Shown here: piece by piece, positions 20,573-28,795 of the stretch
Layout of the letters: the number at the start of each line of letters is the position of its first letter
Numbering within the stretch: position 1 is the stretch's first letter
Assembly (NCBI RefSeq): GCF_003075435.1
Contig: NZ_QCZJ01000001.1
Coordinates: 62,001-126,000 of the forward strand
Source of the DNA: Terrimonas sp.
Lineage (GTDB): Bacteria; Bacteroidota; Bacteroidia; Chitinophagales; Chitinophagaceae
Direction: 5' to 3'
DNA: 64,000 bases
Translations under genes and position numbers: made by a program
Notes under the pieces: generated by a model
The model's database searches: none
The model's input: the letters and a program-made list of their open reading frames with translations, nothing else
What the model was told of the DNA's origin: nothing

Positions 20573-20583
20573 AGTACACTTAA

Positions 20584-20694
20584 TTGATGGGTAGTTCCTT
20601 AGCTGTAAGCTATTAGCCTTCAGCTACCAGCCACCAGGTATTTGCTTGCTTTAATAGCTGAAAGCTGATACCAGGAAGCTCAATTCCCCATCAA
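20584..20694 (-). other. Structured 5' leader of the cysH operon
   Basis: The segment between the candidate promoter and cysH is enclosed by a perfect 8-bp inverted repeat, TTGATGGG at 20584-20591 and CCCATCAA at 20687-20694. Inside are further pairable words (TTCC/GGAA, TCAGCTA/TAGCTGA) of the AGCTGATAG repeat type. The closing arm ends 11 bp before the cysH start codon, so folding could affect ribosome access. It resembles no riboswitch known to me. Confidence 0.4.
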
Positions 20695-20726
20695 AGCGAA
20701 TTTTTATACCCTACTAAACTGGTGGA

Positions 20727-20734
20727 CAAAGATA
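20727..20734 (-). promoter_or_regulatory. cysH: -7 element for the cys operon
   Basis: The minus strand reads TATCTTTG, a full match to TAnnTTTG, about 155 bp upstream of cysH. No clear -33 TTTG is seen. It lies back-to-back with the plus-strand promoter at 20775-20807, leaving a shared control region of about 65 bp. Confidence 0.5.
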
Positions 20735-20774
20735 ATGACTATAATTTTATTTTTTCTCTTTGTCCTAATATTTT

Positions 20775-20807
20775 TTTGAGTTTTTAGAAGATTTGCATTT
20801 ACCTTTG
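20775..20807 (+). promoter_or_regulatory. Promoter of the SAM riboswitch-metY operon
   Basis: TTTG at 20775-20778, 21 bp of spacer and TACCTTTG at 20800-20807 match the Bacteroidota promoter pattern. Transcription would start about 10-15 bases before the riboswitch P1 stem at 20828. Confidence 0.7.
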
Positions 20808-20827
20808 CGCCAGTTCTTTAAAAATCG

Positions 20828-20943
20828 CTTATCAAGAAAGGCTGAGGGACTGGCCCAATGAAGCCTTGACAACCTGTTCCGTGCCGCACAATGCGGTATG
20901 GGGAAAGGTGCCAACTCCATCACGCTGAGGCGTGACAGATAAG
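20828..20943 (+). ncRNA. SAM-I (S-box) riboswitch
   Basis: The core S-box landmarks occur in order: CTTATCAAGAAAGG, GAGGGACTGGCCCAATGAAG, GACAACCTG, AAAGGTGCCAACTCC and GACAGATAAG. P1 pairs CTTATC (20828-20833) with GATAAG (20938-20943). SAM binding should stabilise P1 and allow the terminator at 20988-21019 to form. The bases GAAGA just after P1 can instead pair with TCTTC in the left terminator arm, a plausible antiterminator. It precedes metY-metX-hom, a typical S-box regulon. Confidence 0.93.
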
Positions 20944-20987
20944 TCAGAAGACCAGCTGATATTATACCACTTCAATGATATATTAAG

Positions 20988-21019
20988 CTCTTCCGATGAC
21001 CTGTTGGAAGAGTTTTTTT
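20988..21019 (+). terminator. Riboswitch-controlled intrinsic terminator
   Basis: CTCTTCC (20988-20994) and GGAAGAG (21006-21012) form a 7-bp stem followed directly by seven T residues. It lies 45 bp after the SAM-I aptamer and is its expression platform. Confidence 0.85.
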
Positions 21020-21214
21020 ATGCCCGGCCCGCATATTAAATTCCTCCGCACAACAAAGTTTCTGATAGGTGTGTTTGATAAAACATATTGTTTAACAATG
21101 TTCTGCCAAAACCGGAACGCAAAAAACAGTTTACATCAAAGCGAACACAACATTATAACTACTAAACTGATTTCCATACGTATAATGAGGTGAGCTAATA
21201 ATTAACAAATAAAA

Positions 21215-21247
21215 ATTGGGTAATTAATAGTAAGTCTATTAAATTTA
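21215..21247 (+). promoter_or_regulatory. Possible second promoter before the Cys-rich leader
   Basis: ATTG (21215-21218), a 21-bp spacer and TAAATTTA (21240-21247) approximate the Bacteroidota promoter, with one mismatch in the -7 element. If active it would bypass the SAM riboswitch and start transcripts close to the leader ORF at 21272. Confidence 0.3.
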
Positions 21248-21271
21248 TAGGCTATTTCCAAGAACCAGGCA

Positions 21272-21349
21272 ATGGTATCAATTAATAACAATAACAAATT
21301 TAATTACAACGCATTCTTACGCGCCTGTTATTGTTGTTGTATGCCGTAA
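21272..21349 (+). CDS. Putative cysteine-rich leader peptide upstream of metY
   Basis: A 25-codon frame (ATG 21272, TAA 21347-21349) encodes a peptide ending FLRACYCCCMP. Four of its last seven residues are Cys, all encoded by TGT, followed by Met. Such a run next to the stop codon is what a ribosome-stalling leader sensing charged Cys-tRNA would look like. The stop codon lies in the loop of a small perfect hairpin, ATGCC-GTAA-GGCAT (21341-21354). A second weaker hairpin (GCGCACC/GGTGAGC) follows at about 21377-21395. There is no clear U-tract, so translational coupling or folding around the metY start, 103 bp on, is as likely as transcription attenuation. Poly-Cys upstream ORFs regulate sulfur genes in mycobacteria; the function here is inference. 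Confidence 0.6.
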   Translation: MVSINNNNKFNYNAFLRACYCCCMP

Positions 21350-21392
21350 GGCATATAATCTATTCCTGCGCACCCTGAAGGTGAGCCTTTAA

Positions 21393-22760
<1,368 letters not shown>

Positions 22761-22769
22761 TGATTTATA

Positions 22770-22819
22770 GTTTATGGTTTGAAGTTTATGGTCCAAACTA
22801 TAAACTTCAAACTATAAAC
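22770..22819. repeat. Long hairpin in the metY-metX spacer
   Basis: Arms 22770-22792 and 22797-22819 pair over about 23 bp, with only G-U type mismatches and a CCAA loop. They are built from the words GTTTATGG and AAACTATAAAC. It occupies much of the 101-bp spacer and could mark an mRNA processing or stability point inside the operon. Confidence 0.75.
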
Positions 22820-22861: not shown

Positions 22862-23929
22862 ATGGCGACAGAGATTTTTGAATATAAACAACCATTTACG
22901 CTGGAGAACGGCACTGTATTACCCGGGTATCATTTGGCTTATACCACGTTAGGAAAGCTGAATGCCAGAAAGGATAATGTAGTATGGGTTTTTCATGCGC
23001 TTACCGCTAACAGTAATCCTGCTGACTGGTGGCCCGGGCTGGTAGGCGAAGGCAGGTTTTTTGATCCGGCTAAATACTTTATTATTTGTGTGAACATGCC
23101 GGGCAGTTGTTACGGAAGCATTGGACCGCTGGAAATTAATCCGCAAACAGGCGAAAGATGGTATCATAGTTTTCCGCTGTTTACCACCAGAGATATGGTA
23201 AGAGCCTATAAACCTTTAAAAGATTTTCTTGGTATTGAAAAGATAGATATTGGTATAGGAGGTTCAATGGGCGGGCAACAATTACTAGAGTGGGCAGTTG
23301 AGGAGCCGCAATTATTTGATCACATTGTGGCGCTCGCTACCAATGCGCAGCATTCACCATGGGGTATTGCACTCAATGCATCGCAACGCATGTGTATTGA
23401 AACTGATGCCACATGGCAAACCAATACACAGGAAGCAGGCATTAATGGCATGAAAGCTGCCAGGAGTGTTGCATTGTTAAGTTACAGGAATTACAACACC
23501 TATAATCTTACGCAACCGCGTGACAAGAAAACAGCCTGGCCGGTATCACATAATTTTGGTGGCGAAGCCGCTGAAAGTTACCAGCGTTACCAGGGAGAAA
23601 AATTAGCTAACCGTTTCAATGCATTCAGCTATTACCGCCTGGGGCAGGGTATGGATGCGCATGATCTTGGCAGAGGCAGAGGCTCCGTTGAAGAGGCATT
23701 ACGCCGTATTACCGCTAAAACATTGGTAATAGGAATAACAAGTGATTTGCTTTTTCCACCGGAGGAACAGGTCAGGATTGCTGATGGTATACCTGGCGCT
23801 ATATATCAATTGATAGAATCGCTGTATGGACATGATGGTTTTTTGCTGGAATATGAAAAGATTGAACAGGCATTGCGGCATTTTATCCGTGAAGATGTTT
23901 TGAGTTATTTAAAAATTATAAATCGATAA
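22862..23929 (+). CDS. metX: Homoserine O-acetyltransferase
   Basis: A 355-residue alpha/beta-hydrolase-fold acyltransferase that activates homoserine for sulfhydrylation. The catalytic triad is visible: S135 in IGGSMGGQQLLEWA, D295 in ITSDLLFPPEE and H324 in YGHDGFLLE. The segments NMPGSCYGSIGP (~78-89) and YRLGQGMDAHDLGRGRG are typical of the family. Whether a MetX uses acetyl-CoA or succinyl-CoA depends on few residues; pairing with metY favours acetyl. The ATG at 22862 follows the hairpin-bearing spacer. Four bases separate its stop from the hom start, so the two are translationally close. Confidence 0.94.
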   Translation: MATEIFEYKQPFTLENGTVLPGYHLAYTTLGKLNARKDNVVWVFHALTANSNPADWWPGLVGEGRFFDPAKYFIICVNMPGSCYGSIGPLEINPQTGERWYHSFPLFTTRDMVRAYKPLKDFLGIEKIDIGIGGSMGGQQLLEWAVEEPQLFDHIVALATNAQHSPWGIALNASQRMCIETDATWQTNTQEAGINGMKAARSVALLSYRNYNTYNLTQPRDKKTAWPVSHNFGGEAAESYQRYQGEKLANRFNAFSYYRLGQGMDAHDLGRGRGSVEEALRRITAKTLVIGITSDLLFPPEEQVRIADGIPGAIYQLIESLYGHDGFLLEYEKIEQALRHFIREDVLSYLKIINR

Positions 23930-23933
23930 TATA

Positions 23934-25190
23934 ATGGATGCACATAAGCAATTAACAATCGGGCTATTTGGTTTTGGAGTGGTGGGTGAAGGTTTATATA
24001 AAGTGCTTGAACAAACACCATCATTGCAAGCTACTATTAAGAAGGTTTGTATAAAACATGCAGGTAAAAAAAGAAATGCACCGGAAAGCTTATTCACCAC
24101 AGATCGTTTCAGCCTGCTGAATGATCCGGAAATAAATGTGATCGTAGAAGTAATCAATGAATCCGAGCCTGCATTTGAAATTGTGTCAACAGCCTTGAAG
24201 AATGGCAAAGCAGTAGTGAGCGCCAGTAAAAAAATGATCGCTGAGCATTTGCCCGATATACTGGATCTGCAGAAAAAATACAACCAGCCATTCCTGTGTG
24301 AATCTGCCGCCTGTGCTTCCATACCCGTTATCAGGAATCTTGAAGAATATTACGACAATGATCTGCTCCATTCCATCCGCGCTATCGTTAACGGATCAAC
24401 GAATTTTATTCTCACCAAGATGTTTGAAGATAAACTTGACTTTAAACAGGCATTGATACTTGCCCAGCAATTGGGCTTCGCGGAAGCAGATCCTTCTTTA
24501 GATGTTGATGGCTGGGATGCGCTGAATAAATGGACATTCCTCCTTACACATGCTTATGGTATAGTAGAAAAACCGGAAAATATTGTTTTCAATGGTATTC
24601 AAAACATAAAACTGAGTGATGCTGCTGTTGCCAAAGAAAAAAGTCACGAAATAAAATTAGTAGCCCAGGCAAAAAAGCTCAACAACGGGAAAGTGGCGGC
24701 TTTTGTATTACCCCAGTTTGTAACGCATGATGACCCACTGGCATTTGTAAAGAATGAATTTAATGGAGTAGTAATTGAAAGCTCTTTTGCTGATAAACAA
24801 TTTTTTTATGGCAAAGGCGCAGGAAGTTTTCCTACCGCATCCGCAGTATTGAGTGATATTTCCGCATTACGCTATGATTACCGCTACGAATATAAAAAGC
24901 TATATCATCACAAGCCGCTTCAGCTTACAGACGATTTTTACGTTCGCACTTATGTAAGCTTTGATGATCTGAAAAATATTCCCCGCGAAAAATTTGAATG
25001 GATTGAAGAATGGCATGCCGGCGAAAGAAAGTACCTGGTGGGTGTACTGCGTTTTAAAGAACTGAAAGAAAACACCTGGTGGAAGGAAAATAATGTATCG
25101 CTCATTCTTGCACCCGACGCTATTATTGAAGATATAGAAATAAGAAAATTGAAAAAGAAAAGTTTGGAGCTGGCCGGCATATTGGATTAA
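23934..25190 (+). CDS. hom: Homoserine dehydrogenase
   Basis: A 418-residue NAD(P)-dependent enzyme that reduces aspartate semialdehyde to homoserine, the substrate of MetX. The nucleotide-binding site is IGLFGFGVVGEGLYKVL near residues 8-24. The catalytic region includes AIVNGSTNFILTKM (~147-160) and AEADPSLDVDGWDALNKW (~180-197). It is not fused to an aspartate kinase. The last ~90 residues (YVRTYVSFDDL onward) look like a regulatory ACT-type domain, as in many bacterial homoserine dehydrogenases. Placement directly after metX shows it is dedicated to methionine supply, and SAM control of the whole operon would limit it. Confidence 0.93.
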   Translation: MDAHKQLTIGLFGFGVVGEGLYKVLEQTPSLQATIKKVCIKHAGKKRNAPESLFTTDRFSLLNDPEINVIVEVINESEPAFEIVSTALKNGKAVVSASKKMIAEHLPDILDLQKKYNQPFLCESAACASIPVIRNLEEYYDNDLLHSIRAIVNGSTNFILTKMFEDKLDFKQALILAQQLGFAEADPSLDVDGWDALNKWTFLLTHAYGIVEKPENIVFNGIQNIKLSDAAVAKEKSHEIKLVAQAKKLNNGKVAAFVLPQFVTHDDPLAFVKNEFNGVVIESSFADKQFFYGKGAGSFPTASAVLSDISALRYDYRYEYKKLYHHKPLQLTDDFYVRTYVSFDDLKNIPREKFEWIEEWHAGERKYLVGVLRFKELKENTWWKENNVSLILAPDAIIEDIEIRKLKKKSLELAGILD

Positions 25191-27106: not shown

Positions 27107-28795
27107 ATGCTTAAGCCCAAATTACTTGATACATTAAAAGGTTATACCGCCGGTCAATTCCGGAAAGATGCGATGGCAGGGGTCATTGTGGGCATTGTAG
27201 CGTTGCCACTTGCTATCGCGTTTGCGATAGCAAGTGGCGTTACACCCGAAAAAGGATTATATACGGCTGTAATAGCCGGCTTTATTATTTCCGCGCTTGG
27301 AGGCAGCCGCGTACAAATTGGAGGACCAACCGGCGCATTCATCGTAATTGTATTTGGCATTGTGCAGCAGTACGGCGTTAATGGTTTGATCATCGCTACA
27401 CTTATTGCAGGCGTAATGCTTATTATAATGGGATTTGCAAAGCTCGGTTCCGTTATTAAATTCATACCACACCCTTTAATTGTGGGTTTTACCAGTGGTA
27501 TAGCGCTTCTTATTTTTTCATCGCAGATAAAAGATTTTTTTGGATTGCAGATGGGTACTGTGCCCGCTGAGTTTGTTGAAAAATGGGAAAGCTATTTTAT
27601 GCATTTTGGCAGCTTGAATATATATGCAGTGATAATTGCAGCAGCAACCGTTATTATTATATTGTTTTCACCAAAAGTTACAAGAGTTATTCCAGGTTCG
27701 TTGTTTGCTATTTTACTCAGTACTGTTGCGGTACAATTGTTTCACCTGCCGGTTGAAACCATTGGCAGCAAATTCGGCGACATCCCTTCTTCACTGCCGA
27801 ATCCGGTAATACCTCACCTTGATTTTGCTACTGTAAAAGCGATGATACAACCGGCATTTACCATTGCTTTACTGGCAGGCATAGAATCCTTATTATCCGC
27901 TGTAGTTGCAGATGGTATGATCGGTGGAAATCACCGCTCAAACATGGAACTGGTTGGGCAGGGAACAGCAAATATATTTTCAGCGCTTTTCGGAGGCATT
28001 CCTGCAACAGGCGCTATTGCCAGAACTGCCACCAATATCAAAAATGGCGGACGTACACCTGTTGCCGGTATTATTCATGCATTAACGCTTTTGGTGATCA
28101 TGCTTTTTGTAGGCAAATGGGTAGCATTGATACCTTTAGCATCATTAGCCGGTATATTGATGGTTGTAGCGTATAATATGAGCGAGTGGGAAAGCTTTGT
28201 TTCAATCTTAAAAGGTCCAAAAAGTGATGCCGCTGTATTACTGGTTACATTTTTACTAACGGTATTTATTGATTTAACTGTAGCCATTGAAATAGGAATG
28301 GTGCTGGCAGCTTTTTTATTTATGCGAAAAATGGTACAGTTCAGCGGGGTGAATGTTTTTACAAAAGCCATTGATGATGGAGAGCAGGTGAAAAGTAAAG
28401 AGGATATTGAAAACTTTACCATACCCAAACATGTACAGGTATTTGAAATTACAGGACCAATGTTTTTTGCTGCCGCCTATAAATTTAAAGAAGCGATGCG
28501 GATACTGGAAACACCTCCTAAAGTTCTCATCATACGTATGCGGCAGGTGCCGATGATTGATGCTACAGGTATAAAAACACTAAGAGATGTTTTGCATCAA
28601 ACCAAACAAAGGAAAACAAAACTGATTTTATCCGGAGTAACAGAAGGGCAGGTATTGACTGAATTACAAAAATCAAGATTACTGTTTGCCATAGGCAAGG
28701 CGAATGTTTTACCAACGTTTACTTTAGCAATGGAACGGGCTCAACAATATTTATTACAGGAAGCAGCAGATAACACACCTGCAGATAAAATATAA
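27107..28795 (+). CDS. SulP family anion transporter with STAS domain
   Basis: A 562-residue SLC26/SulP inner-membrane transporter for sulfate, bicarbonate or another anion. The first ~430 residues hold the transmembrane domain, with the signature stretch ALPLAIAFAIASGVTPEKGL (~36-55) and GGSRVQIGGPTGAFIVIV (~63-80). The C-terminal cytoplasmic STAS domain spans about 440-550 and includes VLIIRMRQVPMIDATGIKTL. It lies 2 kb after the sulfur/methionine locus, so sulfate uptake is attractive. However, SulP proteins with these motifs also move bicarbonate, and no cys-type control element is visible upstream. A 79-residue protein gene follows two bases after its stop. Confidence 0.9.
   Translation: MLKPKLLDTLKGYTAGQFRKDAMAGVIVGIVALPLAIAFAIASGVTPEKGLYTAVIAGFIISALGGSRVQIGGPTGAFIVIVFGIVQQYGVNGLIIATLIAGVMLIIMGFAKLGSVIKFIPHPLIVGFTSGIALLIFSSQIKDFFGLQMGTVPAEFVEKWESYFMHFGSLNIYAVIIAAATVIIILFSPKVTRVIPGSLFAILLSTVAVQLFHLPVETIGSKFGDIPSSLPNPVIPHLDFATVKAMIQPAFTIALLAGIESLLSAVVADGMIGGNHRSNMELVGQGTANIFSALFGGIPATGAIARTATNIKNGGRTPVAGIIHALTLLVIMLFVGKWVALIPLASLAGILMVVAYNMSEWESFVSILKGPKSDAAVLLVTFLLTVFIDLTVAIEIGMVLAAFLFMRKMVQFSGVNVFTKAIDDGEQVKSKEDIENFTIPKHVQVFEITGPMFFAAAYKFKEAMRILETPPKVLIIRMRQVPMIDATGIKTLRDVLHQTKQRKTKLILSGVTEGQVLTELQKSRLLFAIGKANVLPTFTLAMERAQQYLLQEAADNTPADKI

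Follow-up and report, generated by a model that had tools for sequence, protein, structure and literature searches.

The stretch of Terrimonas sp. DNA analysed here (64,000 nucleotides, hereafter the window) contains, on its forward strand, a short open reading frame (ORF) at 21272-21349 that ends in a run of cysteine codons and lies upstream of metY (21453-22760), its presumed target, which encodes an O-acetylhomoserine sulfhydrylase (NCBIfam TIGR01326, 694.5 bits). Downstream of metY on the same strand are genes for a metX-like homoserine O-acetyltransferase (22862-23929; TIGR01392, 346.7 bits, under the model cut-off of 500) and a homoserine dehydrogenase (hom, 23934-25190; NF004976, 303 bits). 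An inverted repeat with 23-nt arms, 91% complementary and 4 nt apart, occupies 22770-22819 between metY and metX. The opposite strand carries cysH, cysD and cysN as well as genes for a serine acetyltransferase, a tetrapyrrole methylase, a CysJ-like flavoprotein and a sulfite reductase, and a sulfate permease is encoded at 27107-28795; the window therefore holds a sulfur-assimilation island. Upstream of the ORF, also on the forward strand, a SAM-I riboswitch aptamer (20826-20945; Rfam RF00162, 76.8 bits, E 2.8e-16), the only one above gathering score in the window, is followed by its predicted intrinsic terminator (20985-21015), a 14-pair stem and then a T run. The frame is accordingly placed, as had been claimed from the letters of this DNA alone (the sequence-only reading), between a SAM riboswitch and a sulfhydrylase gene, and no Rfam family matched 20946-21460 at up to E 5.

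The ORF translates to the 25-residue peptide MVSINNNNKFNYNAFLRACYCCCMP, followed by a TAA stop (21347-21349). Its Cys codons are numbers 19, 21, 22 and 23 (21326-21328 and 21332-21340), so that the four TGT-only Cys codons of the sequence-only reading are present in a short frame before metY, although they span five consecutive positions and not the seven given there. The minimum free energy (MFE) fold predicts a hairpin at 21338-21357 (UGUAUGCC-GUAA-GGCAUAUA; hairpin 1), in which 21338-21345 pairs with 21350-21357 and which contains both the last Cys codon and the stop. The stop lies in its GUAA loop, closed by eight pairs, one of them G-U.

Taken alone, and in one genome, the Cys run is weak evidence for function. 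On the two strands of the window, seven ORFs (8-75 codons) reach four or more Cys in eight codons, as against 0-1 in each of five block-shuffled windows; five of the six others overlap an ORF of at least 150 codons. The question is settled by comparison of metY leaders, for which we took the best 80 of 589 confirmed metY loci together with 30 from relatives and dropped six loci that duplicated another over the last 200 nt, leaving 104 distinct loci. Under a fixed rule (ATG and stop, 12-75 codons, at least four Cys in eight codons, within the last 350 nt before metY), a Cys ORF was found in 54 of these 104 leaders, compared with a mean of 0.25 and a maximum of 2 among shuffled leaders (20 runs, 104 loci) and with 2/104 upstream regions in a reverse-strand control. 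Applied to the other ORFs of the same loci, the rule was passed in four of 274 cases, three of them cysH and one (L061) beginning inside the metY leader. The earlier argument that such a run is unlikely to arise by chance is thus upheld by the set of leaders, whilst the seven ORFs of the window count against it.

Codon usage within the run could be examined in the 34 of the 104 loci that share a hairpin of the form TGCC-N3..6-GGCA in the last 300 nt, with codons anchored on the hairpin. In the seven-codon stretch that precedes the ATG of the hairpin, all 155 TGN codons specify Cys (119 TGT, 36 TGC, no TGA, no TGG), and the restriction of their third positions to T or C establishes a constraint at the protein level; an alignment of relatives' metY leaders for a kept frame and kept Cys codons, the check suggested together with the sequence-only reading, therefore gave a positive answer. 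The rest of the peptide drifts, length included. It ends in MP-stop in 22 of the 34 loci and the frame continues past that point in the other 12; the stop thus varies more in position than the hairpin does. Compared with long ORFs of these loci, which have 166 TGT and 168 TGC, the run favours TGT (119:36), chiefly at codons -1, -2, -5 and -6, with a 1:1 ratio at codons -4 and -7; as codon -1 lies inside the hairpin, some RNA-level constraint is superimposed, most clearly at the last codon. Base-paired sequence variants of hairpin 1 occur in four further loci (L041, L057, L102 and L103). RNAalifold found none of five pairs changed on both sides across the 34 loci, which is expected because these loci were picked by that very hairpin sequence. 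That the frame is a chance ORF, or an RNA structure that happens to read TGT TGT TGT, would fit the several equally Cys-dense ORFs of the window and the excess of TGT; set against the frequency of the ORF among metY loci relative to shuffles, the exclusive use of T or C in 155 third positions and the recurrence of the trait before cysH and cysS in different surrounding sequence, this explanation is scarcely credible.

Conservation is uneven at the level of individual loci. L083, the relative closest in metY (97%), keeps the frame and its length and has five Cys, and a locus from the same genus (L086) has lost both hairpin and Cys run. Fifty of the 104 leaders (best 80 of 589 plus 30 from relatives) fail the strict rule, five of which (L002, L005, L006, L008 and L047) retain the hairpin with 1-3 Cys. 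A search of 298 genomes of the order with the pattern TGYTGYATGCCNNNNGGCAT returned 17 places, of which 12 are metY leaders and the remaining five show no Cys run past the two Cys that the pattern requires. The exact DNA string coding for CYCCCMP was found only in the organism's own genome among 148 genomes; such a search would suggest no conservation, and it was the alignment of metY leaders that revealed it instead. A CCCCC-stop pattern matched in 99 of 296 Bacteroidota genomes; among 30 such loci examined, many were TGC/TGT repeats without a start codon, and L136, L137, L144, L145 and L148 were leader-like.

Similar ORFs also precede other genes of sulfur metabolism. Of 30 cysH loci from relatives, 15 have a polyCys ORF under the same rule (shuffles 0.1; reverse strand 0/30), with peptides such as MVKIDIYCCCCC, MVMNRIYCCCCCCM and MEKMKKYMCCCCCCR; this strict count excludes L182, whose first ATG makes the ORF too long, and includes L174 through an ORF 284 nt upstream that the rule selects over the one at 84 nt. 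Neither the cysH leader of the window nor those of its two nearest relatives (L159-L161) have a Cys run; by eye, they appear to be filled with AGCTGAAAGC-type repeats. Inspection by eye also showed that in several cysH leaders (L162-L168) a TTGATGG at the start of the upstream ORF (uORF) complements CCATCAA or YTATCAA near the cysH start, and that at 20573-20735 of the window (minus strand) this type of complementarity is kept, together with AGCTGAAAGC-like repeats and no Cys run. Before cysS the ORF was found in three of 30 loci (L210, L218 and L214, the last of these long and doubtful; shuffles 0.1), and the pattern search added L136, with the peptide MFFLSHTCCCCCCC. Near the cysE, cysK and cysS loci of the organism's own genome no convincing polyCys ORF was seen. 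In L144, L145 and L148 a polyCys ORF (up to nine Cys) stands 52-53 nt before another ORF, which in L148 is PhyH (PF05721, phytanoyl-CoA dioxygenase family), for which we know of no link to cysteine.

These data also bear on whether the peptide is itself the product, either as a Cys-rich metal- or redox-binding peptide or as a metal-sensing nascent chain. Its richness in Cys and the conservation of that content would agree with such a role, but length and non-Cys residues drift, the number of Cys per leader peptide ranges from one (L047) to nine (L069), and the linked genes are metY, cysH and cysS with PhyH as the one exception. Moreover, five leader peptides compared with Pfam and NCBIfam gave no credible family match (best E 0.2), and we regard a function of the mature or nascent peptide as very improbable. 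The features found are those of an amino-acid leader peptide, namely a run of codons for the pathway amino acid held under coding constraint and a location before genes of the pathway.

Two promoters are predicted in the window, both on the forward strand. That of the SAM-riboswitch transcript (P1, 20776-20807) consists of TTG at 20776-20778 and TACCTTTG at 20800-20807, read by eye against the Bacteroidota consensus TTG - about 20 nt - TAnnTTTG, and that of the Cys-ORF transcript (P2, 21216-21247) of TTG at 21216-21218 and TAAATTTA at 21240-21247. A TAnnTTTR-type box is found 7-28 nt before an in-frame ATG of the Cys ORF in 30 of the 34 hairpin loci (including the doubtful L028, where the chosen ATG is internal), as against 4.7 of 34 in shuffled leaders (maximum 11, 50 runs); the box together with a TTG 18-22 nt upstream is present in 25 of 34, with 0.42 expected from shuffling (maximum 3). 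An A-rich stretch and a C are conserved immediately 5' of the box. In Flavobacterium psychrophilum the TAnnTTTG element is placed at -12 to -5 in the available text of one report (PMC9723704), from which the predicted RNA start lies 3-24 nt before the ATG in the 30 loci and near 21252 in the window, which would leave a 5' untranslated region (UTR) of some 20 nt there. It follows that the Cys ORF is probably near-leaderless and does not depend on the SAM riboswitch, the terminator of which lies upstream of P2; with a promoter of its own, the ORF would be more than an additional element on the transcript that SAM controls.

The -7 box of P2 is overlapped by the palindrome CTATTAAATTTATAG (21236-21250, forward strand), a possible repressor site, and the columns around the box are conserved. 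Palindromes of this CTAC-N7-GTAG type (CTACTAAATTTGTAG) were noted by eye at a second position in the window (20711-20725) and in L020, L024, L174, L177 and L178. At cysH such a site follows closely on the -7 box, and in some loci that have no Cys ORF one immediately precedes metY. The element looks like a candidate sulfur-repressor site.

The relation of the Cys ORF to the SAM riboswitch takes two forms. Rfam identified a SAM aptamer in the available sequence of 31 of 40 loci, mostly from Chitinophagaceae (18/20 and 13/20), at 307-644 nt from metY in the 17 measured; in other loci of the 40 the aptamer precedes a different upstream gene. In the window, the leader would be carried on its own short transcript from P2, and there would therefore be two sensors on two promoters, SAM being read from P1 through the riboswitch terminator and cysteine from P2 through the leader peptide. 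The second arrangement was seen in 18 Cytophagales-type loci (Cytophagales, Solitalea, a Flavobacteriales metagenome-assembled genome (MAG) and unplaced Bacteroidetes), which were given to Rfam because they carry the Cys ORF. In each of the 18 the ORF is preceded by a SAM-I aptamer, with the 3' end of the aptamer 3-10 nt from the ATG in every case measured, a gap that leaves no room for a terminator. A nineteenth such locus, L063, has its aptamer at 2620-2737, and L065 has a second SAM element, of the terminator type, elsewhere in the locus. In a consensus fold of nine of these leaders, an RCAACA segment further downstream is paired with the Cys codons, mostly through invariant pairs. With the aptamer this close to the start codon, SAM would therefore gate the reading of the cysteine sensor. 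A comparable placement is described in M. tuberculosis, where a B12 riboswitch acts on the start of a uORF before ppe2; ligand and organism are different, and the available text of that report (PMC11260477) does not describe a series of pathway amino-acid codons in the uORF. We give even odds to the broader proposition that Bacteroidota join SAM and cysteine status at metY, by separate promoters in Chitinophagaceae or in fused form in Cytophagales, Solitalea and the Flavobacteriales MAG, within a phylum-wide cysteine regulon of polyCys leaders (metY, cysH and cysS). Were it true, the fused form would make a two-input logic gate that is switched on only by low levels of both SAM and cysteine, and a natural example of a riboswitch feeding a leader peptide.

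How the state of the leader would be passed on to metY was approached by folding and by composition. Downstream of hairpin 1 the MFE fold contains a weak second hairpin (hairpin 2, GC.CACC-CUGAA-GGUG.GC, 21368-21386, forward strand) with no T run 3' of its stem; across the 34 hairpin loci the stability of hairpin 2 exceeds that of shuffles by a narrow margin only (mean z -0.35, s.e.m. 0.17). A terminator scan found no intrinsic terminator between 21350 and 21453, and hairpin 2 was rejected as a terminator in the window, having neither a T run nor a terminator-like site. A classical transcription attenuator, in which the leader peptide determines whether an antiterminator forms or hairpin 2 acts as an intrinsic terminator, would draw support from the terminator-like hairpins of the 34 spacers, which on average score above shuffles (4.4 against 1.3), and from the ten spacers with a candidate terminator (a stem whose following eight bases include four or more T), the clearest being L099, where a perfect hairpin is followed by six T. 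However, the other 24 spacers have no such stem (scores below 11), the window itself has none, the stability of hairpin 2 barely exceeds that of shuffles, and no conserved alternative pairing was found among the hairpin-sharing Chitinophagaceae-type loci, so that this mechanism appears unlikely. Pairing of the N-terminal part of the ORF with the Cys run, which is present in the MFE fold of the window (whole-leader z -1.67), was likewise set aside as a switch: its mean z of about -0.84 is not relied on because a control with reversed sequences also gives -0.60.

In L059 and L079 (Bernardetia and Flexibacter MAGs), the polyCys ORFs end about 275 nt before metY and the SAM aptamer lies farther upstream (607-694 and 2382-2516, respectively); in L059 a T-rich, terminator-like stretch was seen by eye after the ORF. 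These two leaders may be true transcription attenuators.

A translational attenuator, in which the leader masks the ribosome entry region of metY until a ribosome stalled on the Cys codons exposes it, has precedent in mycobacterial polyCys ORFs, which are so described in the available text of two reports (PMC13236596, PMC9031893), and would suit the complementarity between uORF start and cysH start in several relatives' cysH leaders. Simulated stalling nevertheless did not alter the accessibility of the metY start (0.57 against 0.58, 29 loci), and the changes at single loci had no consistent direction (seven up, three down). Occlusion of the metY start is thus not supported by folding, and we consider translational attenuation doubtful. 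The spacer between hairpin 1 and metY (21358-21440, forward strand) is C-rich and G-poor (C 26%, G 13% in the window; C 24%, G 11% over the 34 hairpin loci), compared with C 16% and G 14% in 18 spacers chosen from the 50 loci without a Cys ORF, and such a composition is consistent with a Rho loading region. Because an intrinsic terminator is not a general feature of these leaders and folding predicts no masking of the metY start, we lean towards Rho-dependent or coupling-dependent control of transcription as the output step in Chitinophagaceae.

Our main reading, to which we assign a probability of roughly 0.84, is that the ORF encodes a cysteine-responsive leader peptide acting in cis on metY-metX-hom; it builds on the ORF, its coding constraint, hairpin, position and promoter motif, which sequence analysis establishes, and from these we infer translation, stalling and the direction of control. 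The function of the peptide would be that of being translated. When Cys-tRNA is scarce, ribosomes would slow or stop at the Cys codons, and where such a ribosome sits relative to hairpin 1 would determine, in cis, how strongly metY-metX-hom is expressed. Characterised amino-acid leader peptides suggest, by analogy, that expression would rise when cysteine is low. The proposal of the sequence-only reading that translation of the Cys codons reports cysteine supply is in this respect supported by the coding constraint and by the related ORFs before cysH and cysS.

Attenuators of the trp and his type combine leader-peptide codons for the pathway amino acid with a hairpin around the stop codon. The present leader resembles them in both respects and differs in that no terminator/antiterminator pair was found, the window having no intrinsic terminator after the leader ORF. 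Leader ORFs with polyCys runs precede cys operons in Actinobacteria (PMC1262725), and those of mycobacteria are reported to be cysteine-responsive (PMC13236596 and PMC9031893, citing Canestrari 2020). As far as the available text of these reports describes them, the actinobacterial leaders share with ours a Cys run near the stop, the linked sulfur genes, the lack of an obvious terminator and, if the promoter prediction holds here, a leaderless or near-leaderless message; the closeness of Cys codons to the stop by which mycobacterial polyCys small ORFs are recognised is found here too. Our leader differs from that description in its phylum, its metY target, the constant hairpin in which the ORF ends, the companion SAM riboswitch and a predicted 5' UTR of about 20 nt (3-24 nt in relatives). 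The uORFC-8-2 motif before cysS in Rhodobacterales is similarly a uORF with Cys codons, read as a case of ribosome-mediated attenuation, but as described in the available text (PMC8632094) it has two tandem Cys codons and in all cases a U run that is read as an intrinsic terminator, and it concerns another phylum and gene. For Bacteroidota, the available text of PMC9723704 mentions leader-peptide attenuation before amino-acid operons of F. psychrophilum and does not name cysteine there. Among the open-licence PMC titles listed and the text available, polyCys leaders were named in Actinobacteria and Rhodobacterales and none in Bacteroidota, in keeping with the earlier statement that no established equivalent was known from this phylum.

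If the main reading is correct, it would add the sensing of cysteine-tRNA to the control of sulfur metabolism in Bacteroidota, through an element compact enough to be tested with reporters. The occurrence in two phyla of a similar design, a Cys run at the end of the frame and a short 5' UTR, bears on whether leaderless or near-leaderless uORFs are a preferred solution. To judge from these comparisons, a tiny gene ending in Cys codons probably lets the cell tune its use of sulfur to the supply of cysteine.
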